From the NCBI GenBank assembly GCA_020444205.1, contig JAHLLJ010000005.1, forward strand, positions 1 to 64,000: DNA of 64,000 nucleotides, written 5' to 3'. The notes below the pieces were generated by a model, which did no database searches, was not told where the DNA came from, and was given only the letters and a program-made list of their open reading frames with translations. The DNA is from Deltaproteobacteria bacterium. GTDB lineage: Bacteria > Desulfobacterota > Desulfarculia > Desulfarculales > Desulfarculaceae. Positions within the stretch are counted from its first letter, which is position 1. Each line of letters begins with the position of its first letter. A program made the translations under genes and the position numbers. Of this stretch, positions 44,774 to 62,631 are shown piece by piece.

Positions 44774-46216
44774 CTAGTAGGAACCCGGATAGTCGTTGAC
44801 TTTGTCCAGGTCCACGTAGTCCTCCACCTGAATGGCGGAGGCCACCTCCTCGGGGGTTTTGTTGACCATCTGATAGAAACGGGGCAGCCCGTTTCCGATG
44901 GGCGGAGGCATGGTGGCGTCGATGCCGCCCCGGGTGCCGATGTTACCCGGCGAGGGCAAACTGGGGTCCAAGGGGAACACCGCCGCGCCCTTTACCGTGA
45001 CCAGGTCCTTGTCCCATTGGCTTCGGTAGGCCACCGACCAGAGCACCTCGCTCTCGTTGAACAAATCGATGTCCTCGTCCACCACGATCACGTGCTTCAG
45101 GCGGCTGTCGCAGGGCAAAGTGGCCATGATGGCTTCCTTGCCGATGCCCGGCCGGGTTTTCTTGACCTGCACGTACACGTGGTTGCGCCGCCCGGAGATG
45201 GGCACGTACACATTCATCAGCTCGGGCAACACGCTTTTCACCACGCTGTAGATGCGCGCTTCCATGGGGAAGTTGCCCAGAAGCACCAGATGGTCGGCCA
45301 GGCCCACCCCGATGCCGTGGTAGATGGCGTCCTTGCGGTAGGTGACGCACTTGACGTCGATCACGTTGCTGGGGCGCTGGGGGCCGATGTAGCCGGGGTA
45401 TTCGCCAAAGGGCCCCTCGGCCTCGAACACCTCCTTGGGCACGTAGCCCTCGATGACCATCTCCGCGTCGGCCGGGACCATCAGGTCGCTGCCAAAGGTC
45501 TGGCTGGGCACCAGGCGAAGCGACTCTCCCAGCACACCGCCCACCGAAGGATAGTGGCTCTCGGGGTAACCCAGGCGAGACTGGGCCCCGGCCACTGCCG
45601 CCGGATGGTGGCCGATCCACACGGCCACGGGCATGTCCTCTCCCCTGTCCCACCAGGCGCGCAGGTTGTTCATGGTGTGGCTGGTCACCGCCGGCCACAG
45701 GCCGGTACGCCGAGGACTTTTTACCCAGATGCGCTGCAAACAAGTATTGTCAACGCCGCTGTCGGGGTCGGTGGTGGTCACAAAACCGGTACCGATGTAG
45801 GGGCCGGGGTCCATGTAGTTGTGAGTGAGGATGGGGAACTTGAGCAGGTTGACTTCCTCGCCGGTTTCCACAACCTGTTTCACCGGGGCTTGGTCGACAG
45901 ACACCACCACCGGGTCGATTTTGTTGGAAACCTTGGCGGCGTACTCCATGGCCACCCGGCGGGGATCGATGTCCAGGATTTCGGCGCAAAGGTCGCGGCT
46001 GGCGGTTAGGTTGGTTACCACCGGGAAGGCGCTCTCAGTGCCATCGTCCAGGATGGGGCGCTCTACGATGATCACCGGGTACTTCTTCATGGCGTCCAGC
46101 TTGCGCTGCAAGGCGGTGATCTCGTAAGCAGCCTTTAGCGGTTCTTTTATGCGCAAAACCGCCTCGGGCTTTTCCCGCTCCAGTTGCTCCAGGTAGGTTC
46201 TCAAGTCTTGAGGCAT
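44774..46216 (-). CDS. UbiD-family prenylated-FMN-dependent decarboxylase
   Basis: The 480-residue protein has the UbiD landmarks. MDPGPYIGTGFVTTTDPD and NTCLQRIWVKSPRRTG supply cofactor and substrate-site residues. EMVIEGYVP and EGPFGEYPGYIGP supply the conserved glutamates. It reversibly (de)carboxylates aromatic or alpha,beta-unsaturated acids using prenylated FMN made by a UbiX, which is absent here. Being in one run with an aryl-pyruvate oxidoreductase and a TRAP permease argues for a catabolic role, not ubiquinone synthesis. I therefore leave the gene unnamed. Confidence 0.92.
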   Translation of the reverse strand: MPQDLRTYLEQLEREKPEAVLRIKEPLKAAYEITALQRKLDAMKKYPVIIVERPILDDGTESAFPVVTNLTASRDLCAEILDIDPRRVAMEYAAKVSNKIDPVVVSVDQAPVKQVVETGEEVNLLKFPILTHNYMDPGPYIGTGFVTTTDPDSGVDNTCLQRIWVKSPRRTGLWPAVTSHTMNNLRAWWDRGEDMPVAVWIGHHPAAVAGAQSRLGYPESHYPSVGGVLGESLRLVPSQTFGSDLMVPADAEMVIEGYVPKEVFEAEGPFGEYPGYIGPQRPSNVIDVKCVTYRKDAIYHGIGVGLADHLVLLGNFPMEARIYSVVKSVLPELMNVYVPISGRRNHVYVQVKKTRPGIGKEAIMATLPCDSRLKHVIVVDEDIDLFNESEVLWSVAYRSQWDKDLVTVKGAAVFPLDPSLPSPGNIGTRGGIDATMPPPIGNGLPRFYQMVNKTPEEVASAIQVEDYVDLDKVNDYPGSY

Positions 46217-49113: not shown

Positions 49114-49923
49114 ATGAAAAATAACGGCAACGGCGACAACGGGAAATACCGCATCAAGGTGCTTCAAAAAGCCTTCCGGCTTTTGGAGCTGTTCCACGAC
49201 AAGGTTGAGGAGCTCTCGGCCACCGAGATCACCGAAAAGCTGCAATACAACAAGACCACGGTGTTCAGGATCATCTCCAACCTTGAAGAAGAAGGTTACC
49301 TGGAAAAGAACCCGGAGACGGGCAAGTACCGCCTGGGTATGAAGCTGTTTTTTCTAGGCAGCTTGGTAAAACCCTATCGCCACCTCAAGAGCACGGCCAA
49401 GCCCCTGTTGCGTAGCCTGAACCAGCAAACCGGTGAGACGGTTCATCTGGCGGTGTTACACAAGAACCAGGCCCTGTATCTGGACAAAATCGAGAGCAAT
49501 CACACTGTGAGGGTGGTCGTCTCCCAGATCGGGCAAAAGCTGCCCGCCCATTGCTCCGGAGTAGGTAAGGTCCTTCTGGCCCACTTGCCCGAAGACGATG
49601 TCAAGGGAGCGGTTGAGGAAACCGGGCTGCCCGCCTTTACCCAGAACACCATCACCACTTGGAACCAGTTAAGGACTGAGTTGGAGAAGGTGCGCTCTCA
49701 GGGCTTTGCCCAAGACAACGAAGAAATCGAAATGGGTCTCAAGTGCGTGGCCGCGCCGGTATTTCTCGATAGCCAGGTAGTGGCCGCTCTGAGCGTTTCG
49801 GTTCCCAAAGACCGTTTTGAAAAAACTCCGCACGACATTACTCGCATGGTGATGCAAGCTGCCGACGAGCTAAGCGGGGTATTGCAAAATTCCATAGTAA
49901 ATCTCAGGCCCACGGCGGGTTGA
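49114..49923 (+). CDS. IclR-family transcriptional regulator
   Basis: The 269-residue regulator has an N-terminal winged helix (LSATEITEKLQYNKTTVFRI, residues 33-52) and the IclR effector domain starting with GMKLFFLGSLV, including DKIESNHTVRVV and LPAHCSGVGKVLLA. IclR proteins bind small organic acids. Located between the TRAP-ubiD-ior run and the plus-strand ferredoxin-LarA-like-AOR-Liv run, it is the obvious candidate regulator of one or both. It is followed by the ferredoxin gene after 54 bases, so it may itself be in that operon. Confidence 0.93.
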   Translation: MKNNGNGDNGKYRIKVLQKAFRLLELFHDKVEELSATEITEKLQYNKTTVFRIISNLEEEGYLEKNPETGKYRLGMKLFFLGSLVKPYRHLKSTAKPLLRSLNQQTGETVHLAVLHKNQALYLDKIESNHTVRVVVSQIGQKLPAHCSGVGKVLLAHLPEDDVKGAVEETGLPAFTQNTITTWNQLRTELEKVRSQGFAQDNEEIEMGLKCVAAPVFLDSQVVAALSVSVPKDRFEKTPHDITRMVMQAADELSGVLQNSIVNLRPTAG

Positions 49924-49977: not shown

Positions 49978-50598
49978 ATGAAGACGGTTAGGGTTCAGGC
50001 CCAGGTGGACATGGATCTCTGCCAGGGTTGCAAAACTTGCCAAATGGTCTGCCCTGTCTACGCCATTGAGGTGTCGCGGGTGGACGGCAAACCCCAAGTC
50101 AAAATTGATCATGATATCTGTGTCGGTTGCTGGAACTGTGAACAGCGCTGTCCCGACCACGCCATTTCCATGGCTCCTTGCGAGCCCTTCGACCTGGCCA
50201 CCGACGTATCCAAGTTCGACTACGACGAGATACGCGCGCTATGCCGCAAGGCCCATTTCCATCCCAAGCAGATCGTGTGCTACTGCACCGCTACCCGGGC
50301 CGAGGAGCTGGCCGCCGCCATCTTGGACGGCGCCTCCAACCCCGCCGAGTTGGTGCGCGCCAGCGGCGCGGGCTCTGGTTGCGGCATCGAGTGCAACCAG
50401 CCCATCCTGCGCTTCCTGGAAGCAGCGGGCAAGACCTATGAGCGGCCCAAGCAGAGCTATCAGTGGTACGGCCGCACAGCCACCGTCTGGGACGTGAGCG
50501 ACAAGGTCAAGAAAGAGCACCCCGGCTTCCGCTTTGACAGCGACCGCGAGCTGTTAAACAGCGTGGTGGAAGCTCCCATCGACAACGCGAAATCCTAA
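49978..50598 (+). CDS. Ferredoxin/BFD-like iron-sulfur protein
   Basis: The 206-residue protein has two [4Fe-4S] motifs (CQGCKTCQMVCP, then CVGCWNCEQRCP) at residues 15-57. A BFD-like [2Fe-2S] domain follows, with CYC ... SGCGIEC (residues about 100-140). The last 60 residues are unassigned. It is likely an electron carrier for the aldehyde oxidoreductase encoded 4 kb downstream in the same run. Translation starts at ATG 49978 after GGAGAAGGAA. It is 17 bases upstream of the LarA-like gene. Confidence 0.85.
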   Translation: MKTVRVQAQVDMDLCQGCKTCQMVCPVYAIEVSRVDGKPQVKIDHDICVGCWNCEQRCPDHAISMAPCEPFDLATDVSKFDYDEIRALCRKAHFHPKQIVCYCTATRAEELAAAILDGASNPAELVRASGAGSGCGIECNQPILRFLEAAGKTYERPKQSYQWYGRTATVWDVSDKVKKEHPGFRFDSDRELLNSVVEAPIDNAKS

Positions 50599-50615
50599 AG
50601 GGAAAGGCAGACGCC

Positions 50616-52064
50616 ATGTATAACAAGGCACTCCCCCCTGCCCCCACCCGGGTCTCCCAATACGGCGTTGACCCCAAATGTGTCGTTAAGCGGGGCGCTG
50701 AACTGAAAGATATCGTGGGCGTTCCGCTCAACGATTTGGTCACCGGCCTTCCGCCGGTCATCTTCCCCAGCGGCGACAACGACGTGGCCGTTATCCGCAA
50801 AGAGACCGAGGCGGCCCTGGCCAAGGTGGACATGTCCAAGATCACCCCGGGCAGCACCGTGAATATTTTGGCCTCTCACCACGGCTTCACCTTTTTCGGC
50901 GGCCAGCCTTATGCCGAGATGCTCAGGACCATCAAAGACGTGGTGGAGCAGCGCACCGGGTGCAAGGAAGTGCGTCTGCGCGCCGGCCTGGGCATGCGCT
51001 TCCGCGAGACCGAGGAATACATCAAGGCCCACGGCCTGGACGAGTACTTTAAAGGCAAGGCCCTGGGCATCGCCCCCATCGACGCGGGCATCCCTATCGA
51101 GACCGAGCTGGGCACCCTGTTCGGCCTGCGCAAGGCCTACGACGCCGACTTCATCATCCACGCCCACAACAGCGACGTGCGCGAGGTGCACTTCCACCGC
51201 CAAGTGGACCGGGCGGTCAAGCCTTTTGGCATGAGCTACGCCCGCTGTGAAACTCGCTCCACCTACCACATGAACCTGGGACCCCGGGCGGCCAACTTCG
51301 TGGCCCGCTCCATCTTTGAGTCCGAGTTCGTGCAAAGCAAGTTCGCCTTTGCCTGCTTCCTCACCATGTCTCCGGCCGGAGCCACCGGCGTGGACGCCGA
51401 CGCCGACCTCTACGCCCTCAACGACCGGGTGACCGTGGCCGGCATGCGCGACTATGGCAAGATCATGACCCTGTTCGGGGCCATCGACGAGTGCATCGTG
51501 GTTTTGGACTTCCCCTGCCCGGTGCCCTACGTGTTTGCCTGCGGGGTCATCTACGCCAACATGACCTGCGCCAACCTGGATGTGTTCGACCTTGACTACC
51601 CGCTGCCGCCCTACACCTGGTACACCGAGACCATGTACGACGACAACGGTAAGCCCCTGATCCCCGAGGTCCCGCCGGTCAACCCGGCCATTAAGACCGT
51701 GGTGCATAACTATGCATGGATCGGCTACCCCTCGGTGTTCTTCGCCGAGAAGAGCCCCACCATCGTGGTGGGTAAGGAGCAGGCCGAGTTGTTCGACCGC
51801 GACCCCATGAACCTCAACTACATGAAGCACGCCCTGTTGGCCGACAACCTGGACGGGGCCATGGAGTTCGCCTATCACACCACGGGCACCGACAAGGTGA
51901 TCCTGTTCGACGGCGCGGCCGGCGGCCTCAACGTCAGCAACGCCTTGGCTGAGCATCTCTACAAGGTCGCCCCCGGCGTGATGGAGAGGGTTGAACAAAA
52001 GCTGTTGCCCAAGTGGTTGGCTCAACGCAACGTGGACCCATCGATGTTGGACCAAGTGGCATAA
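50616..52064 (+). CDS. Remote LarA-like (nickel-pincer racemase family, DUF2088) protein, tentative
   Basis: I do not recognise this 482-residue protein with certainty. Its domain order resembles LarA. STVNILASHHGFTFFGG matches the N-terminal Rossmann strand. The block ADFIIHAHNSDVREVHFHRQ, followed by VDRAVKPFG, lines up with the LarA segment carrying His174 and the cofactor-tethering Lys184. A later His (TYHMNLGPRAANF) lines up with His200. The C-terminal LDGAMEFAYHTTGTDKVILF resembles the LarA C-terminal strand-helix. The catalytic His108 position appears absent, so lactate racemisation is not expected. It starts at ATG 50616 and is followed by a QPRT-like gene with a 1-base overlap. Confidence 0.5.
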   Translation: MYNKALPPAPTRVSQYGVDPKCVVKRGAELKDIVGVPLNDLVTGLPPVIFPSGDNDVAVIRKETEAALAKVDMSKITPGSTVNILASHHGFTFFGGQPYAEMLRTIKDVVEQRTGCKEVRLRAGLGMRFRETEEYIKAHGLDEYFKGKALGIAPIDAGIPIETELGTLFGLRKAYDADFIIHAHNSDVREVHFHRQVDRAVKPFGMSYARCETRSTYHMNLGPRAANFVARSIFESEFVQSKFAFACFLTMSPAGATGVDADADLYALNDRVTVAGMRDYGKIMTLFGAIDECIVVLDFPCPVPYVFACGVIYANMTCANLDVFDLDYPLPPYTWYTETMYDDNGKPLIPEVPPVNPAIKTVVHNYAWIGYPSVFFAEKSPTIVVGKEQAELFDRDPMNLNYMKHALLADNLDGAMEFAYHTTGTDKVILFDGAAGGLNVSNALAEHLYKVAPGVMERVEQKLLPKWLAQRNVDPSMLDQVA

Positions 52065-52900
52065 TGAACCTTTGTGCGCCCGCAACCTCCGTGAACTGGT
52101 GGCCGCCGGATATTCGGCAACGGATATTCGACGGTCACCAGTGTCGTTTGGTGCGCGCGCATATCACCGCTGAAAAGGCTGGAGTGCTCAGCGGCATCAA
52201 GCGTGCCGCCGAGGTGGCGGCCAACACCAGGGTGAGCTTCGACTCATCCCTGGCTGATGGTCAGGAGGTGGCCGCCGGGCAGGTAGTCGCCACCCTGACC
52301 GGAACCCCTTTTTACATCGTCAGAGCCGAAGACCTCCTCTTGGGAGAGTTGTCCAAGACCTCGGGCATAGCCACCCAGGCCCGCCAAGCCCTTGAAGGGG
52401 CCAACGGCCACTTCATCGTGGTATGCGGAGCCTTTAAAAAAATGCCCCACGCCATCAAGGACCAGATCCGCCAGGCCGTAGCCCACGGCGGATTGCGCAT
52501 GCGCATGGCCCCCCACCCTTTTGTGTACGTGGACAAAAACTACGTGCGCATCTTGGGCGGCGTGGCTAAGGCCATGCAGGCGGTGGCTCCCCTGGAGCGC
52601 CCGGTGGTCATCCAGTTGCGCGGCGAGTTGGAGCCTATCGCACAGGAGGCGATCACCGCCGCCCGTATGGGCGCGGCCACCCTGATGGTGGACACCGGCG
52701 AGTTGGACGACTTGGAAGCCGTCTCCACCGCCCTTCGCGGCGAGGGCCTGCGCGAAAAGGTCAAACTGGCCTTTGCGGGCAACCTTAGCCTGGAAGACTT
52801 GCCGGGGCTTTCCGGGCACGACGTGGACGCGGTGGATATCGGCTACAGCGTGGTGGATGCCCCGTGCCTGCCCATGCGCTTTGACGTGATCGAGGACTAA
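52064..52900 (+). CDS. QPRT-like (quinolinate phosphoribosyltransferase/ModD-type) protein
   Basis: The 278-residue protein matches the plan of nicotinate-nucleotide pyrophosphorylase/ModD: an N-terminal alpha/beta sandwich and a TIM-like barrel. The blocks LLGELSKTSGIATQARQALEGA, LMVDTGELDDL and DAVDIGYSVVDAPCLPM can be seen. Classical QPRT uses quinolinate plus PRPP to make nicotinate mononucleotide; the arginine- and lysine-rich quinolinate site cannot be verified by eye. Its ATG overlaps the preceding stop as TAATG, so it is translationally coupled to the LarA-like gene. Its presence may relate to a nicotinate-derived cofactor, but that is conjecture. Confidence 0.6.
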   Translation: MNLCAPATSVNWWPPDIRQRIFDGHQCRLVRAHITAEKAGVLSGIKRAAEVAANTRVSFDSSLADGQEVAAGQVVATLTGTPFYIVRAEDLLLGELSKTSGIATQARQALEGANGHFIVVCGAFKKMPHAIKDQIRQAVAHGGLRMRMAPHPFVYVDKNYVRILGGVAKAMQAVAPLERPVVIQLRGELEPIAQEAITAARMGAATLMVDTGELDDLEAVSTALRGEGLREKVKLAFAGNLSLEDLPGLSGHDVDAVDIGYSVVDAPCLPMRFDVIED

Positions 52901-52910
52901 GCGAGCGGTC

Positions 52911-53804
52911 ATGCAGTACCGTCTTCTTGAAAAGACCGAAATCTGGATAACTCCCCTGCGCCTGCACGAGGCTGATTTGGCCGCCTGTGCCCAAGCGGCG
53001 GGCGAAGTCTTGGGCCTCACCCCCGAGCAGATAATGGTCACCGACGCTCAAACCGAGCATCTGGTATTCGACGTGCTCACTCCCACTGTGGAGGCCAGGC
53101 AGATCGTGGCCCGCAAGGGCGCCTTGCTGGATGCTCTGAGCCGGGTGCCGGGCGTGGAGATCAACGAAAACACCGAAGTTCATTCAGACGGCATCCTGGG
53201 CATGATCAGCCTGGGGACGGACGAGGGGCGCGAAGTTCTGGAGCGCACCGAAAAGCTCCAGGCCCAGCTAAAAGAACGCCTGGCCCGCAGGGCCAAGGTG
53301 TTTCCCACCGGCACCGAGGTAATCAACGGCCAGATCAAGGACACCAACACCCCATTCCTGGTGCAGGAACTGGAGACCATGGGCTTCACCGTGGCCACCT
53401 CTCCTCCCCTGCCCGACCAGCTCAACCGCATCGCCAACTCCCTGCGCAACGCGGTGGAAGAAGGATACGGCCTGGTCATCACCACCGGAGGGGTGGGGGC
53501 CGAGGGCAAGGATCAGACCGTGGAAGCTCTCTTGGCCCTGGACCCCGAAGCGGCCACACCTTACGTGCTCAAGTTTACCAAGGGCCAAGGCCGCCACGCC
53601 AAGGACGGCGTGCGCCTGGGGGTGGGCCGCTTGGGCCAATGCATCATGGTCACCCTACCTGGGCCCAATGATGAGGTGCGTTTGACCTGGCCGGTGCTCA
53701 GCCAAGGGCTTAGCGAAAACTGGCCCAAGGAGCGCCTGGCCGCTCACCTGGCCGATGCCCTACGCCAAAAGTTTCTGGATCATCAACCGCATCACGCCCA
53801 CTGA
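52911..53804 (+). CDS. MoCF/CinA-like molybdopterin-binding domain protein
   Basis: The 297-residue protein has a C-terminal MoCF_biosynth domain (KVFPTGTEVINGQIKDTNTP, then LVITTGGVGAEGKDQT) of the type found in CinA and MoeA. The N-terminal region of about 120 residues is unassigned (beginning MQYRLLEKTEIWITPLRL). CinA-type domains bind molybdopterin or pyridine-nucleotide-like substrates. Adjacent genes are QPRT-like (10 bases upstream) and an MhpD-like hydratase downstream, and a pterin-dependent aldehyde oxidoreductase lies 1 kb further. So a pterin-linked or nucleotide-linked role is plausible. Confidence 0.75.
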   Translation: MQYRLLEKTEIWITPLRLHEADLAACAQAAGEVLGLTPEQIMVTDAQTEHLVFDVLTPTVEARQIVARKGALLDALSRVPGVEINENTEVHSDGILGMISLGTDEGREVLERTEKLQAQLKERLARRAKVFPTGTEVINGQIKDTNTPFLVQELETMGFTVATSPPLPDQLNRIANSLRNAVEEGYGLVITTGGVGAEGKDQTVEALLALDPEAATPYVLKFTKGQGRHAKDGVRLGVGRLGQCIMVTLPGPNDEVRLTWPVLSQGLSENWPKERLAAHLADALRQKFLDHQPHHAH

Positions 53805-53832
53805 TCAGCGGCCTGAGCGGGGAGGAATAATA

Positions 53833-54618
53833 ATGAGTTTGAGCCAAGAACAACTATCCCAAGCCGCTCAGAGTCTTTTCCAGGCGTCTCGGGACCTGAA
53901 GCCCATTGCCGCGCTTACCGAAACCTTCCCGGGCATCACCGTGGAAGAGGCCTATCAAATTCAGACCACCAACATAGACGCCCGCATAAAGGCGGGGGCC
54001 CGCGTGGTGGGTAAAAAGATCGGCCTGACCAGCCCGGCCATGCAGCAGATGTTGGGGGTTGGCGAGCCTGACTACGGCATGCTCCTGGACGACATGCTGC
54101 TCTACCAGGGCGTGGACTTTGATACCACCATCTTGTTGCAGCCCCGTATCGAAGGCGAGATCGCCTTTGTCATGAGCCAGGACATCATGGGCCCGGTGAC
54201 CCCGGCGGAAGTGGCCATGGCCACCGCCGGAGTTACCCCCGCCCTGGAGATCATCGACAGCCGGGTCAAGGATTGGAAGATCAAAATTCAGGACACCGTG
54301 GCAGACAACGCTTCAGCGGCCGCCTTTGTCATCGGAGCCACCCTGGTGCCCCTGGGTTCCATGGACCTGCGCCATGTGGGCTTCGTGCTCACCAAGAACG
54401 GCCAGTTGGCCGGCACCGGCGCCGGGGCTGCGGTATTGGGCAGCCCGATTCAGTCGGTGGCCTGGCTCATCAACAAGATGGGCGAAATGGGCGTGGGCGT
54501 AAAAGCCGGCGAGATCATCCTTTCCGGCGCCGCTTCCGCCGCGGTGGATGTGGCCCCTGGCGATTCCATTCACCTGGTGGTGGATCGTTTGGGCGAGGTA
54601 GGTTGCCGTTTCGCCTAG
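53833..54618 (+). CDS. 2-keto-4-pentenoate hydratase/4-oxalocrotonate decarboxylase-like (MhpD family)
   Basis: The 261-residue protein starts at ATG 53833 with GGAGG 7 bases upstream. It has the MhpD-type blocks KIGLTSPAMQQMLGV, metal-binding IEGEIAFVMSQD and ALEIIDSRVKDW. The family hydrates 2-hydroxypentadienoate to 4-hydroxy-2-oxovalerate or decarboxylates 4-oxalocrotonate in meta-cleavage pathways. No ring-cleaving dioxygenase is seen, so the substrate here is open. The frame is open upstream to 53755, overlapping the preceding gene, but the RBS decides for 53833. Confidence 0.85.
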   Translation: MSLSQEQLSQAAQSLFQASRDLKPIAALTETFPGITVEEAYQIQTTNIDARIKAGARVVGKKIGLTSPAMQQMLGVGEPDYGMLLDDMLLYQGVDFDTTILLQPRIEGEIAFVMSQDIMGPVTPAEVAMATAGVTPALEIIDSRVKDWKIKIQDTVADNASAAAFVIGATLVPLGSMDLRHVGFVLTKNGQLAGTGAGAAVLGSPIQSVAWLINKMGEMGVGVKAGEIILSGAASAAVDVAPGDSIHLVVDRLGEVGCRFA

Positions 54619-54637
54619 GCCCTGAGGAGAAGATTTA

Positions 54638-54688
54638 ATGCCTGCGGACATTTTCATTCCAAACCCAAGGGTATTGCGACTGACATAG
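54638..54688 (+). CDS. Possible 16-residue leader peptide before the aldehyde oxidoreductase
   Basis: ATG 54638 is preceded by GAGGAGA (54624-54630) and opens a 16-codon frame (MPADIFIPNPRVLRLT) ending TAG at 54686-54688. It lies in the 141-base gap between the hydratase and aldehyde oxidoreductase genes and is followed by an imperfect hairpin. It may be a leader peptide or simply a decayed gene start. The gap holds nothing else that I recognise. Confidence 0.3.
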   Translation: MPADIFIPNPRVLRLT

Positions 54689-54703
54689 TTTCATCACCAG
54701 ATT

Positions 54704-54748
54704 TTTAGCCTGCCCAGCTGCCTTAAGGGTAAAAAGCTGCGCCTAAAA
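54704..54748 (+). promoter_or_regulatory. Imperfect hairpin in the leader of the aldehyde oxidoreductase gene
   Basis: TTTTAGCCTGCCCAGCT is largely complementary to AGCTGCGCCTAAAA with a short internal mismatch, giving a stem of about 13 pairs. It ends just before the AAAAGG ribosome-binding site of the gene starting at 54760, so it could affect access to that site. The pairing is not perfect. Confidence 0.4.
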
Positions 54749-54759
54749 GGAAGTGAACA

Positions 54760-56616
54760 TTGAGTTTCACATTAGGAAATATCCTCCACGTAGACCTTAC
54801 CCAGGGAAGCATCCGAACCGAACCCGCCGACGAACAGGTGTTGCGCGGATACATGGGCGGCTGTGGTTATGGCGCCTACGTTCTGGCCCAGACCCTGCCC
54901 AATCCTCCCGAACCTCTGGACCCGGCCAGCCCCCTGGTATTCAGTTGCGGACCCATCACCGGGACCGCTGTGCCCACCTCGGGACGCCACACCGTGGTGG
55001 CCCGTTCTCCGCTCACCGGCATCTGGGGCGAGGCCTCCATCGGCGGCTCCTGGGGCCGCGAGCTGCGCCGCGCGGGTTACTTGAGCATAGTCATTACCGG
55101 TAAGGCTCCCAGGCCCACCTACCTGTGGATAACCAATGACGGCGTGGAACTGCGTAGCGCTGAAAAGGTCTGGGGCCAAGAGTGCGAGGAAAGCGACACC
55201 CTGCTCAAGGCCGAGACCGACCCCAAGGCGGTGGTCTCCACCATAGGCCCGGCGGGCGAGCGCATGATCCCGGTGTCGGGCATCTTCAGCGACGGCGAGC
55301 ACGCCAGGGTGGCGGCCCGCTGCGGCCTGGGCGCGGTGGCCGGCTCCAAGAACTTAAAGGCCATTGTGGTTCGCGGCACCCAGACCGTACCGGTGCATGA
55401 CTCCGCCGCGTTAAAGGCCATAACCAAGCCCCTGCTCGATACCTACCGCGTCTTGGCCAAGGGCCTGGGCGGCTACGGCACTCCCAACCTGGTGCACCCC
55501 TGCGCGGACGTAGGCACCATGCCCTTCCAGAACTGGCGCAAGGGCAAATGGGAAGGCGCGGAAAAAATAAACGGCGAAGAGCTGAAGCAGCGCTTTTCCA
55601 AAGGCAACTTCCGCTGCGCCGGATGCCCCATCGGCTGCGGCCGCAAGATCGAGCTGGACGGCAAGATCATCGGTGGGCCCGAGTATGAGACCTTGGCCCT
55701 GTTCGGCGGCGGCTGCCTCATAGACGACCTTGAGGCCCTGTGCCGCCTCAACCGCCGCTGCAACCAGTTGGGCATCGACACCATGGAGGCGGGTTCGCTT
55801 ATCGGCCTATCCATGGAGCTCTACGAAAAAGGCATCATCGACAAGGAAGATACCGGCGGCCTGGAGCTCAACTGGGGCAGCGTGCCCGCGGCCACCGAAT
55901 TGGTGGAGCAGATGGGCAAGGGTGAAGGCCTGGGTGCCCTTCTGGGTCAAGGCATGAACACGGTGGTTCAAAAGCTGGGCGGCCTGGCCTCGGAGTACGC
56001 GGTGCAGGTCAAGGGCATGGCCTCGGCGGCCCACGATCCCAGGGCCTACAACAGCATCGCCGTGGGCTATGCCACCTCCAACCGGGGCGCCTGCCACTTG
56101 CAGGGATTCAGCCACGTTTTCGAGCGCAACGTTTCCATGCCCGAGTGGGGCCTCAATGAGCCGGCCGACCGCCTGGACCCCGAGGGCAAGCCCCTTTTGG
56201 TTATGCGGGCCCAGGACCTTATGTGCTTGTTCGATTCGGTGGCCATGTGCAAGTTCTCCCTGTTCGCCGGGGTCAACCCCGGCATCATGACCGGATGGAT
56301 CAACGCCATCACCGGATGGGACATGACCTCGCAAGAGCTTATGAAAAGCGGGGAGCGCATCTTCAATCTCAAGCGGCTCTACAACAACCATCTGGGCATA
56401 AGCCGCAAGGACGACACCTTGCCCGGACGCTTTCTTACCCATAAACGCGGCGAGGGGGGCACGGTAAAGAGCCTGCCGCCGCTCAACCTGATGCTTAGCG
56501 ATTACTACGAACTGCGCGGCTGGAGTGAGGAAGGCATACCCCAGCCCGAAAAAGTGACTGAACTGGGCTTGGAGCAGTGGGACCTGCCCCGTAAGGCCAA
56601 AGTTGCTTTCGGATAA
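54760..56616 (+). CDS. Tungsten/molybdenum aldehyde:ferredoxin oxidoreductase
   Basis: The 618-residue protein starts at TTG 54760 (AAGGAAG upstream). It has the AOR fold blocks GYMGGCGYGAYV near the N-terminus, SGRHTVVARSPLTG, and the [4Fe-4S] site CAGCPIGCGRKI with a later Cys (DLMCLFDSVAMC region). The pterin-binding region GFSHVFER follows. It oxidises aldehydes to acids with ferredoxin, or reduces acids in the reverse direction, in the cytosol. It sits upstream of the ABC transporter and in the same run as a ferredoxin and an iron alcohol dehydrogenase, which would complete an acid-aldehyde-alcohol interconversion. Confidence 0.93.
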   Translation: MSFTLGNILHVDLTQGSIRTEPADEQVLRGYMGGCGYGAYVLAQTLPNPPEPLDPASPLVFSCGPITGTAVPTSGRHTVVARSPLTGIWGEASIGGSWGRELRRAGYLSIVITGKAPRPTYLWITNDGVELRSAEKVWGQECEESDTLLKAETDPKAVVSTIGPAGERMIPVSGIFSDGEHARVAARCGLGAVAGSKNLKAIVVRGTQTVPVHDSAALKAITKPLLDTYRVLAKGLGGYGTPNLVHPCADVGTMPFQNWRKGKWEGAEKINGEELKQRFSKGNFRCAGCPIGCGRKIELDGKIIGGPEYETLALFGGGCLIDDLEALCRLNRRCNQLGIDTMEAGSLIGLSMELYEKGIIDKEDTGGLELNWGSVPAATELVEQMGKGEGLGALLGQGMNTVVQKLGGLASEYAVQVKGMASAAHDPRAYNSIAVGYATSNRGACHLQGFSHVFERNVSMPEWGLNEPADRLDPEGKPLLVMRAQDLMCLFDSVAMCKFSLFAGVNPGIMTGWINAITGWDMTSQELMKSGERIFNLKRLYNNHLGISRKDDTLPGRFLTHKRGEGGTVKSLPPLNLMLSDYYELRGWSEEGIPQPEKVTELGLEQWDLPRKAKVAFG

Positions 56617-56750
56617 AAATTAGTTAGCGGGATAACTGGGGGGACAAATAGTGAGTGAGCGCTCGCCTGATTACAGAAAACAAAGGTGGGAGCTCCACTA
56701 CGGACATGGAGACATGTCTATTCACCATCTACATCGAGGGAGAGGAATTC

Positions 56751-57983
56751 ATGTTCAAAGTAGGAGCAAAAATCACATCCGCCCTGTTTAGCATTTGCCT
56801 CTTGATTGCCGGTTTGTTGCTGCTGGGCCCGGCATCGGCCCAGGCCGGCGCGCCTGACGAAATTCTTATTGGAACCACGGTTAGCGAGTCCGGCTACATG
56901 GCCGAAGACAGCATTCCGTCTTTTAAGGGTCGCAAGTTGGCCGTGGATCTAGTGAACAAGGACGGAGGCCTGTTCCTGTCCAAGTTCAACAAAAAGGTGC
57001 CCGTGAAGCTGGTCTACTACGATGACAAGAGCGAGCCCTCGGCCGCGGTGCGCAGCTTCCAGCGCCTGGCCAACATGGACAAGGTCGACTTCTTCCTGTC
57101 CGCCCACGGCTCCACCCTGTCCTTCGCGGTGGCCAAGATCGCCGAAACCTCCAAGATTCCCATGACCATCTACGCTGGTTACGCCAACAAGATTTGGACC
57201 CAGGGCTACAAGTACATCTTCAACGTTGGCCCCACCGCCTCCCAGTACTGCGAGGCTTTCGTGAACCTGGTCAAGAGCCTTCCGGACAAGCCCAAGGTGG
57301 GCCTGATCCACGAAGACGGCCTGTGGGCCAAGGCGGTTTCCGGCGCCATGGCCAAGATGGGCAAGGCAGCAGGCGTGCAGATCGACGTTGTGGACGTCTA
57401 CCCTTCCGACAGCAAGGACGTGAGCTCCTCGGTCAACAAGGTCATCGCCGAGGGCTACCCCATCATCGGCACCGTCAGCCACGTGCGCAACGACCTGCTG
57501 GTTACCCGCACCATCCTGGAGATGGGCGTGACAAACAAGTTCAGGATGATCTACGTGCAGACCGCCACCGGCTACCCCTCTTTTGCCCAGAAGTTCAAGC
57601 CTGAGCAGATTCAGGGCATCGTGGGCACCAGCGTGTGGGCCTCCAGCATCAAGACCTACTTCAACTCCGAGTTCCAGAAGGCCTACAAAAAGGCCTACGG
57701 CGAGGAGCCCAGCTGGGTTTCGGCCATCGGCTTTGCCGGTGCCCAGGCCATGCTGGAAGCCATCAAGGAAGCCGGCACCAACGACCGCGAGGCGGTACGT
57801 CAGGCTTTCGTGAGCAAGGACATCAAGACAATCATCGGCGACCTGAAGTTCAAAAAAGACGGCACCTCCAACGGCAGCGCCCTGGTTTGCCCCCAGATGC
57901 AGGGCGGCATCCCCGAGGTGGTCTACCCGGCCGATTTCGCCACCAAGAAGCTGATCTACCCCCAACCGACCTACAAGAAATAA
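56751..57983 (+). CDS. Branched-chain-amino-acid-type ABC transporter periplasmic binding protein
   Basis: The 410-residue protein has a signal peptide (FSICLLIAGLLLLGPASAQA) followed by a periplasmic-binding-protein fold I domain (ILIGTTVSESGYM, then KRKLAV-like LVNKDGGLFLSK and SAHGSTLSFAVAKIAE). It belongs to the LivJ/LivK-like group, whose members bind amino acids, amides or aromatic acids. The ATG at 56751 with GGGAGAGG upstream was chosen over an earlier start at 56655. A strong hairpin follows, before the ATPase genes. It probably binds an aromatic or branched acid, in line with its neighbours. Confidence 0.92.
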   Translation: MFKVGAKITSALFSICLLIAGLLLLGPASAQAGAPDEILIGTTVSESGYMAEDSIPSFKGRKLAVDLVNKDGGLFLSKFNKKVPVKLVYYDDKSEPSAAVRSFQRLANMDKVDFFLSAHGSTLSFAVAKIAETSKIPMTIYAGYANKIWTQGYKYIFNVGPTASQYCEAFVNLVKSLPDKPKVGLIHEDGLWAKAVSGAMAKMGKAAGVQIDVVDVYPSDSKDVSSSVNKVIAEGYPIIGTVSHVRNDLLVTRTILEMGVTNKFRMIYVQTATGYPSFAQKFKPEQIQGIVGTSVWASSIKTYFNSEFQKAYKKAYGEEPSWVSAIGFAGAQAMLEAIKEAGTNDREAVRQAFVSKDIKTIIGDLKFKKDGTSNGSALVCPQMQGGIPEVVYPADFATKKLIYPQPTYKK

Positions 57984-57991
57984 GGCTCCCT

Positions 57992-58028
57992 AGGGGGAGG
58001 AGGTCATTCCTCCTCCCCCTTAATCTTT
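57992..58028 (+). terminator. Attenuator-type hairpin between binding-protein and livG genes
   Basis: A perfect 11-bp stem (GGGGGAGGAGG, 57993-58003, with CCTCCTCCCCC, 58009-58019; a further A-T pair at the base) has loop TCATT and is followed by TTAATCTTTCT. It could reduce transcription into the ATPase and permease genes and keep the binding protein in excess. Confidence 0.7.
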
Positions 58029-58048
58029 CTCCCAAGGGATTTATCGCC

Positions 58049-58777
58049 ATGCTTGAAGTTAAACAAGTTAGCAAGTACTTCGGCGGGGTCCAGGCGGTGG
58101 AAAATGTGAGCCTTGCGGTTGATCAAGGAGAGATCGTGGGGCTCATAGGCCCCAACGGTTCGGGGAAGACCACCCTGTTCAATTTGATTACTCGCATCTA
58201 CCCCCTGACGGCAGGCGACATCTATTTTCAAGGCAAGCTCATCAACAAGATGAGCCCCTCGGACGTATGTCACCTGGGCATCTCCCGCACCCACCAGATA
58301 CCCCGGCCCTTCCACAGCCTTAGCGTGCGCCAAAACGTGAGTCTGGCCTATCTCTACGGCCGCAAGGACTCAGGAGACCGCGCCAAGGCCAACAGCGAGG
58401 CCGAGCGCCTATTGGACTTGGTGGGACTGAAGGAATACGCCCAAAACCCGGCGTCGCAACTCAACGACGTGCAATGCAAGGTCTTGGAGTTGGCCCGTTC
58501 CCTGGCCACCGATCCCAAGCTTTTGCTCTTGGACGAGATTTTGGCCGGCCTCAACCCCGCCGAGCTCTCGTTTTTCCAGGATTTGATTCTCAAGATCCGC
58601 TCGGAGCTGGGGATCACCGTTTTCTGGTGTGAGCATATTATGCGCGTGTTGATGAAAACCGTGGACCGGGTGGTCTGCCTGGATTATGGCCGCAAGGTCT
58701 GCGAGGGCTCGCCCTCGGAGGTGGCCAACAACCCCGAGGTTATCGAGTGTTACCTGGGCAAGGCAGCGGGTGAATAA
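58049..58777 (+). CDS. livG: LivG-type ABC transporter ATPase
   Basis: The 242-residue ATPase starts at ATG 58049 and has Walker A IGPNGSGKTTL, and Walker B LLLLDEILAGLNPAE. The C-terminal half has the EHIMRVLMKTVDRVV pattern of LivG. The ABC signature segment is unusual (ASQLNDVQCKVLELARSL, with LNDVQ where LSGGQ is expected). Asparagine and aspartate replace Ser-Gly, yet the rest of the ATPase is intact; this may affect activity. It is followed by livF 2 bases later. Confidence 0.88.
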   Translation: MLEVKQVSKYFGGVQAVENVSLAVDQGEIVGLIGPNGSGKTTLFNLITRIYPLTAGDIYFQGKLINKMSPSDVCHLGISRTHQIPRPFHSLSVRQNVSLAYLYGRKDSGDRAKANSEAERLLDLVGLKEYAQNPASQLNDVQCKVLELARSLATDPKLLLLDEILAGLNPAELSFFQDLILKIRSELGITVFWCEHIMRVLMKTVDRVVCLDYGRKVCEGSPSEVANNPEVIECYLGKAAGE

Positions 58778-58779
58778 AA

Positions 58780-59490
58780 GTGTTGGAAGTCAAAAACCTC
58801 AGCGTTGGATACGGCAACCTGCAGGTGATCCACGAAATCTCCTTTGCCTTGGGCAAGGGGGAGATGGTGGCCCTGTTGGGCGGCAACGGCGCGGGCAAAA
58901 CCACCACCCTCAAGGCGGTGATGGGCCTGCTTCCCCCCTGGGGCGGCGAGGTCCTGCTCGACGGCAAACCCATTCACGAACTTAAAACCCCCAGTATCGT
59001 CTCCCTGGGGCTGGCCTACGTGCCTGAGCACAAATCGGTTTTCCCCAAAATGACAGTTTTGGAAAACCTGGAGTTGGCCCTGAACTCCGAAAAGGCCAAA
59101 GAGAAAAAAGACGAAACCATGCAGGAGGTCTTCGACCTCTTCCCCCGCATCTCCAGCAAGACCAAGCTTCGCCAAATGGCCGGCACCCTCTCCGGTGGAG
59201 AACAGCGCATGCTGGTTATCGCCCGGGCCCTGATGTCCCTTCCAACTTATTTATTGTTGGACGAGCCTTCTTTGGGCCTGGCCCCCCGGCTGGTGCAAGA
59301 CCTATTCGAGGCCATCAAGAGGATTCACGCCGGAGGCGTGCCCATCTTCCTTGTGGAGCAGAACGTAAACCTCACCTTGCAGATCGTCGATCGCGCCTAC
59401 GTGCTGGAGCAGGGCAAGATCGTTCTGGAGGGCTCGGGAACCGAACTCAGCGAGATGCCGCACATCCGCGAGTCCTACCTGGGCATCTGA
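58780..59490 (+). CDS. livF: LivF-type ABC transporter ATPase
   Basis: The 236-residue ATPase begins with a GTG at 58780, two bases after the livG stop. Walker A is LGGNGAGKTTTL, the signature GTLSGGEQRMLVIARALM, and Walker B LLLDEPSLGLAP. These are standard LivF motifs and there is no sign of degeneration. It is the second ATPase of the heteromeric transporter; with livG it drives the LivHM permeases encoded downstream. Confidence 0.93.
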   Translation: MLEVKNLSVGYGNLQVIHEISFALGKGEMVALLGGNGAGKTTTLKAVMGLLPPWGGEVLLDGKPIHELKTPSIVSLGLAYVPEHKSVFPKMTVLENLELALNSEKAKEKKDETMQEVFDLFPRISSKTKLRQMAGTLSGGEQRMLVIARALMSLPTYLLLDEPSLGLAPRLVQDLFEAIKRIHAGGVPIFLVEQNVNLTLQIVDRAYVLEQGKIVLEGSGTELSEMPHIRESYLGI

Positions 59491-59509
59491 GGAAAGGGAG
59501 AGCGAACGC

Positions 59510-60376
59510 ATGGACTACTCAACCCTGGCAGTACAGCTGTTCTTGACGGGAATATTCCTGTCATCGCTATACATATTGGTAACCTTCGGCCTCACCATGA
59601 TCTTCGGGGTCATGGAGATCGTCAACTTCGCTCACGCCTCCTTTGCCATTCTGGGCGGCTACGCCTGCCTGATGGCGGTGACCGCCTTGGGCTTGGACCC
59701 CTTCGTGGCCCTGGTGCCGGTGGTGGCCTTCATGGCCTTGGTGGGTTGGCTCACCTTTGAGTTCTTCGCCCGCTACACCCTGGATGTGGGCGATGCCCAC
59801 GTGGTGCACTACTACGCCCTTTTGTTGATCATCTCCAACGTCCTGGCTCTCATCTTCGGCCTGGACTATAAGTTCGTGCCCTCGGGTCTGGGTTACTCCC
59901 AGATCCACTTGGGGCCCTTCAAGTACCCTCTGCTCAAATTCATCGTGGCCATCATAAGCCTGGCCACCGTGGCGGGGCTGAGCCTTTACTTGAAGAAGTC
60001 GGTGATCGGCAAGAAGATCCGGGCCGTGTCCCAGAGCAAGGAGTCGGCCGAGATCATGGGCATCGACTCGCTCAAGATCCGGCGCATCACCTGGATCATC
60101 GGCGTAAGCTCCGCCGGTCTCATGGGCGCCCTGGTCGGACTGGTGAACCCCTTCTCGCCCTACGCGGGAGCCACCTATCTGATCGTGGCCTTCAGCGTGG
60201 CCATCCTGGGCGGCATGGGCTCTTTGTACGGAACCATCGTGGCCGGGTTCATAATCGGCATGACCGAGAGCCTGTTCTCCCTATTCCTACCCTCCCAGAT
60301 TTCTCCGGTGGTGGCCTTTGTATTCATCATCGGCGTGCTGATGGTCAAACCAGAGGGCCTCTTCAGCCGGGCCTAG
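59510..60376 (+). CDS. livH: LivH-type ABC transporter permease
   Basis: The 288-residue permease has eight or so membrane helices. It includes a FGLTMIFGVMEIVNFAHAS segment (the LivH N-terminal motif) and the conserved EAA-like loop SKESAEIMGIDSLKIR, then GVSSAGLMGALVG. ATG 59510 follows GGAAAGGGAGAGC. It forms the membrane channel with LivM. Confidence 0.93.
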   Translation: MDYSTLAVQLFLTGIFLSSLYILVTFGLTMIFGVMEIVNFAHASFAILGGYACLMAVTALGLDPFVALVPVVAFMALVGWLTFEFFARYTLDVGDAHVVHYYALLLIISNVLALIFGLDYKFVPSGLGYSQIHLGPFKYPLLKFIVAIISLATVAGLSLYLKKSVIGKKIRAVSQSKESAEIMGIDSLKIRRITWIIGVSSAGLMGALVGLVNPFSPYAGATYLIVAFSVAILGGMGSLYGTIVAGFIIGMTESLFSLFLPSQISPVVAFVFIIGVLMVKPEGLFSRA

Positions 60377-60411
60377 GCTCAGGCTAGAGAGAAACAGGCG
60401 AGGAAACCAAT

Positions 60412-61395
60412 ATGCAAGCCAAGAACCAAGGCAATAAAAAAACCACAATCGTACTGGGCATCTTGACCCTGGCCGCCCTGGCCTTGCCCCTGGTGGGCAT
60501 CCCGTACCAGGAATACGCCATGTCGGTGCTCACCTTCGCGTTTATTTACACCCTGCTGGGCCAGTCCTGGAACTTTATGGGCGGCCTGGCCAAGCAGTTC
60601 TCCCTGGGCCACGCGGCCTTCTTCGGCCTGGGCGCCTTTGCCACCGCCGCCTGCAGCAGCGTGGGCATGCCCGCCCTGGTCTCGCTGGCCTTAGGCGGAC
60701 TGGCGGTAGCCGTGTTCAGCCTACCCATAGGCCTTATCTGCTTCTCGGCCCGGGGGCCCTACTTCACCATCATCACCCTGGCCATTGCCGAAATTCTCAG
60801 GATCGTGTTCCTGTGGCGGCCAGAGCTTTCCGGCTCCGAGGGCATTCTTTTGCCCCCAAGCATCTTCTCCACCCGCGAGGGCATCTACTACCTGACTCTG
60901 GTGCTCACCGCCGCGTCCATCTTCACTTTCCGATGGATGGCGCGCAGCAAGCAGGGCTTGGCCCTGGTGGCCATCGGTGATGATGAAGACGCCTGCTCGG
61001 AGATCGGCATCAAGGTGAAGTACATCAAGTCCTCCACCTTGTTCGTAAGCGCGGGCATGGCCGCGGTGGCCGGCGGTTGCTACGGCCTGTTCACCCAGTA
61101 TCTGTCCCCCAACGATGTTTTCTCCATCAACTACTCCCTGGAGGCCATCTTCATTTCCACCATCGGCGGCATAAGCAACGCCTTCGGCCCCTTGGTGGGA
61201 GCATTGTTGGTCAGCCTTTTGGAGGAAACCCTGAACCCGTTGGTTCCCGGCGCGCACCTGTTGGTGCTGGGCGCCATCCTCATATCCATCATGTTCCTGC
61301 TGCCCAAGGGCTTGGTCACACTTTTCAGCAAGTCCGACAACAAGCAGGATGCTCCCATGAAGATAAAGATCAAGCGCCGCCAATCGGCCGCTTAG
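60412..61395 (+). CDS. livM: LivM-type ABC transporter permease
   Basis: The 327-residue permease has a short positively charged N-terminus and about nine membrane helices. The LivM motif SWNFMGGLAKQFSLGHAAFF lies in the first helices, and the EAA loop IGDDEDACSEIGIKVKYIK lies between later helices. The C-terminal cytosolic tail is basic. It is the last of the transporter genes, 28 bases before the iron alcohol dehydrogenase gene. Confidence 0.92.
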   Translation: MQAKNQGNKKTTIVLGILTLAALALPLVGIPYQEYAMSVLTFAFIYTLLGQSWNFMGGLAKQFSLGHAAFFGLGAFATAACSSVGMPALVSLALGGLAVAVFSLPIGLICFSARGPYFTIITLAIAEILRIVFLWRPELSGSEGILLPPSIFSTREGIYYLTLVLTAASIFTFRWMARSKQGLALVAIGDDEDACSEIGIKVKYIKSSTLFVSAGMAAVAGGCYGLFTQYLSPNDVFSINYSLEAIFISTIGGISNAFGPLVGALLVSLLEETLNPLVPGAHLLVLGAILISIMFLLPKGLVTLFSKSDNKQDAPMKIKIKRRQSAA

Positions 61396-61423
61396 TCTGC
61401 CCCGGCACTGAAGGATATGGATT

Positions 61424-62575
61424 ATGAATACCTTTGATCTGCAAATGGACTTCCGGGTGGTTTTTAAAGACCAGGCCCAGGAGTCCACCGCCGGGCTGCT
61501 TGGCCAAATGGGCGCTCAGCGAGTGTTGCTGGTAACCGATGCGGGCATCCAAGGAGCCGGTCTGGACCAAGCCTACCGCGAGGCCTTGGCTGCCCAGGGC
61601 ATTGAAGTGGCGGTGTTCAACGACGTGGAGCCTAATCCCACCACCGCCAACGTGGAGGCGGGCTTGGCCCTGGCCAAGGAGTTCAAGCCCCAGGCCCTGT
61701 TGGGTATCGGCGGGGGCAGCGTGTTGGACTGCGCCAAAGCCATCAATATCCTGCTCAATCGTGGTGGCAAAATGAGCGACTACGCAGGGCCCCAGCAAGG
61801 CGGAGCCGCTTTGCTGCCCCTGGTGGCCGCCCCCACCACCGCCGGCACCGGCAGCGAGGTCTCGCCCTTTTTGCTTATCTCCGACAGCGAGACCCACGCC
61901 AAAATCGTGTGCAAGGACTGGCAGGCCATCCCCAAGGTGGCGGTCCTGGACCCCAGCCTGAGCCTGACCCTGCCGCCCATGGCCACGCTTTTTGCCGGTC
62001 TGGACGCCTTGGTGCACGGCTTTGAGGCCTATGTGGCCAAAGGCAGCCAGCCCTACACCCAGGCTTTGGCGCTTAAATCCATTGGCCTGGTTTACCAAAA
62101 CTTGCCCAAGGTCATGGAAACGCCCTCAGACGTGGAAGCCCGGGGCAACATGCTGCTGGCCAGCAACCTGGCGGGCATGGCCTTTGCCCTGAGCTATTTG
62201 GGGCTGTCTCACTCCCTGGCCAACGCCTTGACCAAAATGAAGGGTACGCCTCACGGCCTGGCCGTGGGCATGATGCTAGGGGCGGTGATTCGCTTCAACG
62301 CTCCGGTGTGCGGCGCGGACTATGAGCATATAGCGCGCTACCTGCTGGGCGAAGGCTGCCCGGCTGAGCAGCAAGCAGCCTGCCTGGCTCTGGCCGACGC
62401 GGTGGAAAAGATGGCTCATTCTCTGGGTATGCCCAAAAACTTGGGCGAACTGGAGTTCCAGGAAAGCCAAATCCCGGAGCTGGTGGAGGAGGCTCTGCGT
62501 CAGGCCACCATCCAGTTCAACCCGCGTACCCCTACGGCCGAGGAGCTTACCACCTTGTTGGAGTCCTGCTTCTAG
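61424..62575 (+). CDS. Iron-containing alcohol dehydrogenase
   Basis: The 383-residue protein has a group III iron-ADH layout: nucleotide-binding GGGSVLDCAKAI, TTAGTGSEVSPF, and the metal site DALVHGFEAY (Asp and His), SHSLANALTKMKGTPHG (two more His). It is in the cytosol and interconverts an alcohol and an aldehyde with NAD(P)H. Following the AOR and transporter genes, it would reduce or oxidise an aldehyde in the same pathway. It is the last gene before a strong terminator. Confidence 0.92.
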   Translation: MNTFDLQMDFRVVFKDQAQESTAGLLGQMGAQRVLLVTDAGIQGAGLDQAYREALAAQGIEVAVFNDVEPNPTTANVEAGLALAKEFKPQALLGIGGGSVLDCAKAINILLNRGGKMSDYAGPQQGGAALLPLVAAPTTAGTGSEVSPFLLISDSETHAKIVCKDWQAIPKVAVLDPSLSLTLPPMATLFAGLDALVHGFEAYVAKGSQPYTQALALKSIGLVYQNLPKVMETPSDVEARGNMLLASNLAGMAFALSYLGLSHSLANALTKMKGTPHGLAVGMMLGAVIRFNAPVCGADYEHIARYLLGEGCPAEQQAACLALADAVEKMAHSLGMPKNLGELEFQESQIPELVEEALRQATIQFNPRTPTAEELTTLLESCF

Positions 62576-62596: not shown

Positions 62597-62631
62597 AACC
62601 CCAAGCCACATCGTGGCTTGGGGTTTTTTTA
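62597..62631 (+). terminator. Strong rho-independent terminator after the alcohol dehydrogenase gene
   Basis: A 13-bp perfect stem (AACCCCAAGCCAC with GTGGCTTGGGGTT, three-base loop ATC) is followed by seven T. It closes the run that starts near 49059. Confidence 0.95.

Follow-up and report, generated by a model that had tools for sequence, protein, structure and literature searches.

A conserved gene cluster around a LarA-fold protein of Desulfarculaceae: a candidate anaerobic pathway for a ring acid

We asked what is encoded by a tightly spaced run of genes at positions 49978-62575 of a 64,000-nucleotide stretch of DNA (the window; positions 1 to 64,000 of contig JAHLLJ010000005.1, GCA_020444205.1), and in particular what would be done by one protein within it, P0001, tentatively assigned to the family of the nickel-pincer racemase LarA. 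The window is from a metagenome-assembled genome (G000, 82% complete), and its cluster-bearing relatives are Desulfarculaceae. A sequence-only reading had treated the whole run as one possible pathway for conversion of a cyclic or unsaturated acid, with its own cofactor supply. All of the genes it named were present on the + strand at the positions given below, with two starts refined: ATG 52064 is a more likely start for the quinolinate phosphoribosyltransferase (QPRT)-like gene than GTG 52013 (1-nt overlap, TAATG), and the hydratase start was moved from 53755 to ATG 53833, which is preceded by GGAGG.

The run consists of two blocks separated by a gap of 141 nt, a core (49978-54618) and a second block (54760-62575) holding an aldehyde:ferredoxin oxidoreductase (AOR), a Liv-type importer and an iron-containing alcohol dehydrogenase (Fe-ADH). 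P0001 lies in the core, a conserved gene cluster, and represents a new LarA-superfamily branch. At a probability of about 0.55, we favor the reading that the core serves an anaerobic pathway not yet described: a nickel-pincer LarA-like oxidoreductase with an iron-sulfur (Fe-S) partner would act on a ring acid and deliver its product to the hydratase MhpD. The core genes are:

49978..50598, + strand: Fe-S partner with two [4Fe-4S] motifs and a C-terminal BFD-like [2Fe-2S] domain (Pfam Fer4 and Fer2_BFD)
50616..52064, + strand: LarA-fold protein P0001, 482 aa, assigned from its predicted structure, without Pfam or NCBIfam match
52064..52900, + strand: QPRT-like protein with an altered acid-binding pocket (Pfam QRPTase_N/C)
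52911..53804, + strand: MoCF/CinA/Mog-like domain protein with an extra N-terminal domain (MoCF_biosynth, PF00994, 5.8e-22)
53833..54618, + strand: MhpD/DmpE-like member of the 2-hydroxypenta-2,4-dienoate (2-oxopent-4-enoate) hydratase family (TIGR03220)

The LarA-like protein and its family

The search with sequence models of LarA/DUF2088, proposed in the sequence-only reading as a check of its assignment, gave no match: P0001 was detected by nothing in Pfam or NCBIfam even at relaxed thresholds, Lar_N (PF09861) and other LarA models included, and four divergent family members likewise had no Pfam match. The predicted structure, by which the same assignment might have fallen, upheld it. An AlphaFold model built from a 15-sequence alignment (predicted TM-score 0.85) matched solved LarA-family structures with Z of 16.3-17.3 over 329-351 residues, the next fold reaching only 6.6, and the top four Foldseek matches were all LarA-family structures.

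In the best register, H174, K184 and H200 of LarA fall on H192, K202 and H218 of P0001, and the 16-residue spacing of K202 and H218 equals that of K184 and H200. Both K202 and H218 were invariant in the family (30/30 sequences, non-redundant at 90%, the set for the LarA-position counts in this paragraph), and we infer from this register that they are the equivalents of the LarA cofactor lysine and nickel-binding histidine. The H174 position was His in 17 sequences (the window included, H192), Tyr in 9 and Asp in 4; the H108 position held Arg in 21, Ala in 4, Gly in 4 and Thr in 1; and the LarA substrate motif DxxR was lost, "SDxTRP" being replaced by "SHHGF". The retention of K202 and H218, together with the disappearance of H108 and DxxR, suggests that the cofactor tether was kept and the racemase chemistry lost; in P0001, Lys202 would then probably bear the nickel-pincer nucleotide and His218 would be a nickel ligand.

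Homologues of P0001 were scattered among Thermodesulfobacteriota, Myxococcota, Alphaproteobacteria, Bacillota and one Propionibacteriaceae bin (11/395 and 27/398 genomes in phylum samples, 1/385 in the Alphaproteobacteria sample), and a search of plasmids found none. A maximum-likelihood tree split the family in two, with 28 members in the clade of the window and 14 others. MhpD was encoded at 26 of the 28 loci of the window's clade and at 0/14 outside it; the two members lacking it are L101, whose contig ends too soon, and L043, a long-branch paralogue. Loci of the second clade have as neighbors a CurA-like reductase, MaoC-like proteins and an E. coli-type UbiD, and its members must act on other substrates. 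The Fe-S, LarA-like, QPRT-like, MoCF and hydratase genes were kept together across phyla, contrary to the chance assembly that the sequence-only reading had considered.

Neighboring genes and the candidate substrate

The product of the hydratase gene scored 281 bits with TIGR03220, the best of four hydratase/decarboxylase models (curated cut-off 409). MhpF and MhpE accompanied the cluster in 18/19 Bacillota loci, the copies at locus L012 exceeding the cut-off, and the usual Bacillota order was (IclR)-QPRT-MoCF-MhpD-MhpF-MhpE-FeS-LarA-like-BenE-M24. Given this gene order, the LarA-like step should yield the MhpD substrate, 2-hydroxypenta-2,4-dienoate. BenE, a benzoate-type importer, was found in 12/19 Bacillota loci (260 bits, cut-off 203). 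At two loci, a UbiD gene adjoins the LarA-like gene, and its product shares 57% (L013) or 48% (L011) identity with the HmfF of Pelotomaculum thermopropionicum (6H6V); both proteins keep the HmfF positions H296, R304 and R331, which we take to be contacts for furandicarboxylic acid (FDCA). The enzyme in structure 6H6V is that HmfF (PMC8988006), and HmfF converts FDCA to 2-furoate (PMC6644310). Together, the BenE, HmfF-like UbiD and MhpD/E/F neighbors lend support to the cyclic or unsaturated acid proposed from sequence. No ring-cleaving dioxygenase was recognized among the recurrent neighbors.

We consider the odds to lean slightly toward some small aromatic or heteroaromatic acid as substrate; 2-furoate itself is a tentative choice. 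Hydride would be transferred to C5 of the heteroaromatic 2-carboxylate, followed by C5-O cleavage without coenzyme A (CoA), the pincer cofactor storing the hydride and ferredoxin recharging it; in a single step, 2-furoate + 2 e- + 2 H+ would give 2-hydroxypenta-2,4-dienoate. The formulas balance exactly (2-furoate, C5H4O3, plus 2 H equals the dienoate, C5H6O3). MhpD would hydrate the dienoate to 4-hydroxy-2-oxopentanoate, which in Bacillota would be split by MhpE and MhpF to pyruvate and acetaldehyde, the latter passing to acetyl-CoA. Desulfarculaceae clusters lack MhpE and MhpF and have IorAB nearby (directly downstream of MhpD in L009), by which 4-hydroxy-2-oxopentanoate might be converted to 3-hydroxybutyryl-CoA, CO2 and reduced ferredoxin. 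The full proposal, i.e., ferredoxin-driven reductive opening of 2-furoate in strict anaerobes by a net-redox pincer enzyme whose variant cofactor is finished by the QPRT-like/MoCF pair, is put forward as doubtful in its entirety. In the open-access literature searched, neither a reductive furoate route nor a ferredoxin-linked enzyme with a nickel-pincer nucleotide was found.

Within the window's clade, the same enzyme logic could serve another substrate. This might be a different small ring acid, e.g., pyrrole-2-carboxylate, or else a hydroxy or unsaturated C5 acid that is oxidized rather than reduced. By chemical reasoning, reductive opening of pyrrole-2-carboxylate with loss of ammonia would also give 2-oxopent-4-enoate; most loci lack an HmfF-like UbiD, and the M24 hydrolase found near many of them could act on a C-N bond. 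We nevertheless hold this unlikely, given the retention of the three presumed FDCA-contact residues by the UbiD proteins of L011 and L013 and the exact match of 2-furoate plus 2 H to the formula of the MhpD substrate.

The remaining features of the window include a divergent arm on the - strand (M24, IorB, IorA, UbiD and TRAP DctM), recurring at other loci of the P0001 family, that the sequence-only reading had missed:

40739..41827, - strand: M24-family metallohydrolase, a recurrent neighbor
about 41985-42587, - strand: IorB (67% to the L009 IorB)
42584..44503, - strand: IorA-type 2-oxoacid:ferredoxin oxidoreductase alpha subunit (TIGR03336, 569 bits, under the cut-off of 651)
44774..46216, - strand: UbiD-family decarboxylase, closest solved relative HmfF (FDCA decarboxylase), 36% identity
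46286..48226, - strand: TRAP transporter DctM fusion (PF06808)
49114..49923, + strand: IclR-family regulator (Pfam IclR_C/HTH_IclR)
54760..56616, + strand: AOR, tungsten pterin type (AFOR_N/AFOR_C)
56655..61395, + strand: Liv-type ABC importer, comprising a binding protein, two ATPases and two permeases (Peripla_BP_6, ABC_tran x2, BPD_transp_2 x2)
61424..62575, + strand: Fe-ADH (Fe-ADH/ADH_Fe_C)
62597..62625, + strand: intrinsic-terminator-like hairpin of 13 pairs, then a T-run

The IclR gene sits between the two divergent arms, a position kept in relatives (6 loci including the window, and 17/19 Bacillota loci). The M24 hydrolase gene neighbors the cluster in the window, at L007, L011, L012 and L056, and in 11/19 Bacillota loci. 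The UbiD gene looks truncated (L056:8385-8762) in G006, the closest complete genome. The AOR, Liv importer and Fe-ADH are variable neighbors of the core, and only in the window do they form this block: in G005 (L007) the AOR is broken, a remnant of it lying between MhpD and LacI (L007:14138-14917), and the Liv and Fe-ADH genes are missing, and G006 (L056) has neither AOR nor Liv. The suggestion that the 12.6-kb run is one pathway thus fails for this separate, non-conserved block. Of the 19 Bacillota loci, five have distant AORs (36-38% identity) and four have an Fe-ADH (31-32%). Formation of furoate from furfuryl alcohol and furfural is one possible role of AOR and Fe-ADH, considered because tungsten AORs oxidize furfural to furoate (PMC9424855); handling of acetaldehyde is another. 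The hairpin with which the run was said to end was found; such terminator-like matches occur in the region at about chance level (20 found, 17 expected).

Electron partner, accessory pair and cofactor genes

Wherever the contig extends far enough, the Fe-S/BFD gene adjoins the LarA-like gene (the contig of L013 is cut off at this point), and cysteines 15, 21, 25, 48, 51, 54, 58, 89, 101, 103, 135 and 139 were invariant across 21 partner sequences. Each LarA-like paralogue has its own Fe-S gene, and this duplication with the enzyme fits a catalytic partner; a 706-aa fusion protein encoded at L048:11074-13191 combines the partner with a GltD/Nfn-like NAD(P)H flavoprotein. We propose the Fe-S/BFD protein as the electron carrier of the LarA-like enzyme, so that P0001 would act with this two-[4Fe-4S]/BFD protein as a net oxidoreductase and not as a hydroxyacid racemase. 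Within 20 kb, L046 (G525) has three pairs of a LarA-like and an Fe-S gene; a fourth LarA-like gene is elsewhere in the genome (L047). An FdhD-like protein, so judged by its sequence, is encoded immediately upstream of Fe-S and LarA-like genes at L053:2116-2961.

If P0001 were instead a conventional LarA-type hydroxyacid isomerase that depends on the nickel-pincer nucleotide and takes an unusual substrate, the Fe-S protein would serve in cofactor assembly, e.g., in sulfur insertion. Every characterized member of the LarA family is a racemase or an epimerase (PMC7583248, PMC11770544), and about half of the P0001 family, the window included, retains the His174 equivalent (H192). This alternative is improbable in view of the loss of H108 and of the DxxR substrate motif, of the Fe-S partner/NAD(P)H flavoprotein fusion at L048, and of the duplication of the Fe-S gene with every P0001 paralogue while the QPRT-like and MoCF genes are not duplicated, as expected of an enzyme partner.

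The QPRT-like protein had QPRTs as its best relatives in the PDB, yet scored 92 bits against a cut-off of 198 for the curated nadC model and was also far under the modD cut-off. Aligned with NadC sequences, it keeps K140 and the PRPP-side (phosphoribosyl pyrophosphate-side) Asp and is changed at the R105, R139 and H161 positions, in the residue numbering and with the roles of known QPRTs. True NadC coexists with the QPRT-like gene in several genomes, so an ordinary NadC was rejected as its identity; with the quinolinate pocket altered as well, its role is probably not just the synthesis of nicotinate mononucleotide, as had been supposed from sequence. Three genomes of the window genus (G001, G004 and G007) had no NadC-like gene at all, so that NAD synthesis in this genus may do without the usual quinolinate route. 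The model of the MoCF protein matched CinA, Mog and MoeA structures and its sequences share the invariant motif TTGGVGAExKD; for the extra N-terminal domain, the structure search returned matches to the MoCF core only.

Within the window genus, the LarA-like, QPRT-like and MoCF genes were all present in 5 genomes and all absent in 3, a split expected by chance, from simple counting, 1 time in 56. Four genomes with several LarA-like paralogues (2 in G002, 3 in G053, 2 in G490 and 4 in G525) each have one QPRT-like and one MoCF gene, which is the pattern of maturation proteins shared by several enzymes; the two genes recur near the LarA-like gene in shuffled orders, and their domains are fused in a single 595-aa protein at L091:5155-6939. 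Most likely, the pair serves the LarA-like family by making or finishing a modified pincer nucleotide, a cofactor variant for P0001 and its relatives; the proposed analogy is to nucleotidylation and metal insertion by Mog/MoeA and to the formation of pyridine nucleotides by QPRT. NadD (nicotinate nucleotide adenylyltransferase) is encoded directly upstream of the QPRT-like gene in an alphaproteobacterium (L016:3511-4299), and MoaD/ThiS-like small proteins are encoded near LarA-like or AOR genes at L045:59-304, L046:19499-19744 and L087:13248-13496.

That the pair acts on the substrate instead, a pyridine or other N-heterocyclic acid being phosphoribosylated, reduced by the LarA-like enzyme and then released, would suit a QPRT fold with a changed acid pocket, the likeness of MoCF to the nucleotide-acting CinA family and the nearby M24 hydrolase, but is the least probable explanation, as the pair is constant while catabolic neighbors differ between the two clades, a single copy serves 2-4 paralogues, BenE and HmfF suggest that the carboxylate is free, and the MhpD product has no nitrogen.

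The genes for the pincer nucleotide itself bear on the cofactor of the LarA-like enzyme. LarB and LarE were each above cut-off in 19/21 genomes searched, and LarC was present in all P0001-bearing genomes tested except G490; since LarB/C/E also occur in relatives without P0001, and most hosts have a canonical LarA, presence in the genome is weak evidence alone. Physical clustering gives stronger support. In the alphaproteobacterium G065, a single contig of 15.4 kb carries the genes for LarC, LarB, LarE, MoCF, the QPRT-like protein, the LarA-like protein and the Fe-S protein, and a canonical LarA was not found in this genome (the bin may be incomplete); LarE, LarB and/or LarC lie beside the cluster in 7/19 Bacillota loci (L085, L087, L093, L095, L096, L097 and L098), representatives of which exceed curated cut-offs. 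These clusters, and the all-or-none occurrence of the QPRT-like and MoCF genes with the LarA-like gene, favor the dedicated cofactor supply put forward in the sequence-only reading. A replacement of LarB by the QPRT-like and MoCF proteins was not supported by the LarB counts, with G750 and G490 as possible exceptions.

Several points weigh against the pathway that we favor. Profile-profile comparison (hhalign) of the P0001 family with canonical LarA was not significant; P0001 is therefore a deep branch, and its residue equivalences are drawn from fold, spacing and register. LarB was missing from G750, and both LarB and LarC from G490 (85% complete), and the QPRT-like/MoCF pair has no obvious role where LarB/C/E are also present. 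The proposed redox direction is drawn from the formula balance and the ferredoxin partner. An HmfF-like UbiD occurs in only two loci (L011 and L013), and the UbiD of the window, only 36% identical to HmfF, has Met in place of R304, losing one proposed FDCA-contact Arg. The M24 hydrolase does not fit into the scheme.

Comparison with known systems

The QPRT-like protein shares with NadC (quinolinate phosphoribosyltransferase) and ModD the QPRT fold, K140 and the PRPP-side Asp positions, and differs in lying far below both cut-offs, in the R105/R139/H161 positions and in coexisting with a true NadC. With the lower meta-cleavage pathway (MhpD/MhpE/MhpF, DmpEFG), the Bacillota clusters have in common a hydratase, an aldolase and an acylating acetaldehyde dehydrogenase, there encoded in one cluster with the LarA-like gene; the dienoate would arise here by an anaerobic reductive step, not from a ring-cleaving dioxygenase.

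The aerobic furfural/hydroxymethylfurfural pathway of Cupriavidus (HmfABCDE and HmfFG; PMC6604932) shares the FDCA decarboxylase HmfF and, as the proposed entry compound, 2-furoate. It proceeds through furoyl-CoA and hydroxylation to 2-oxoglutarate (PMC6604932), whereas a CoA-free reductive opening to 2-hydroxypenta-2,4-dienoate is proposed here. Furfural was reported in 1983 as a growth substrate of a strict anaerobe (Brune et al., as cited in PMC6604932), and a 2018 review still hoped that anaerobes would reveal other furan pathways (PMC6604932). The present cluster is a concrete candidate for anaerobic furan ring opening; several single-contig Bacillota genomes also carry it, so that cultured strains may offer a test of the idea.

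Single-histidine LarA-like enzymes of Blautia and Streptococcus (PMC12611868; 9q3j/9q3k) provided the top structural match to P0001 (9q3k, Z 17.3, tied with Mar2), and they too have an incomplete catalytic His pair; they keep the first His and have Asn for the second, whereas the P0001 family loses the first, and the parts of that source consulted report no Fe-S partner such as P0001 has. With the LarA/DUF2088 racemases and epimerases in general (Lar_N, PF09861), the P0001 family has in common the two-domain fold, the Lys/His spacing of the nucleotide tether and nickel ligand and, in several genomes, gene clusters with LarB/C/E. It differs in going undetected by Pfam, NCBIfam and profile comparison, in lacking H108 and DxxR, and in having an obligate Fe-S/BFD partner and QPRT-like and MoCF companions. 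Characterized nickel-pincer enzymes are isomerases; a redox branch with an Fe-S carrier and two accessory proteins would, if true, extend this cofactor to net redox catalysis.

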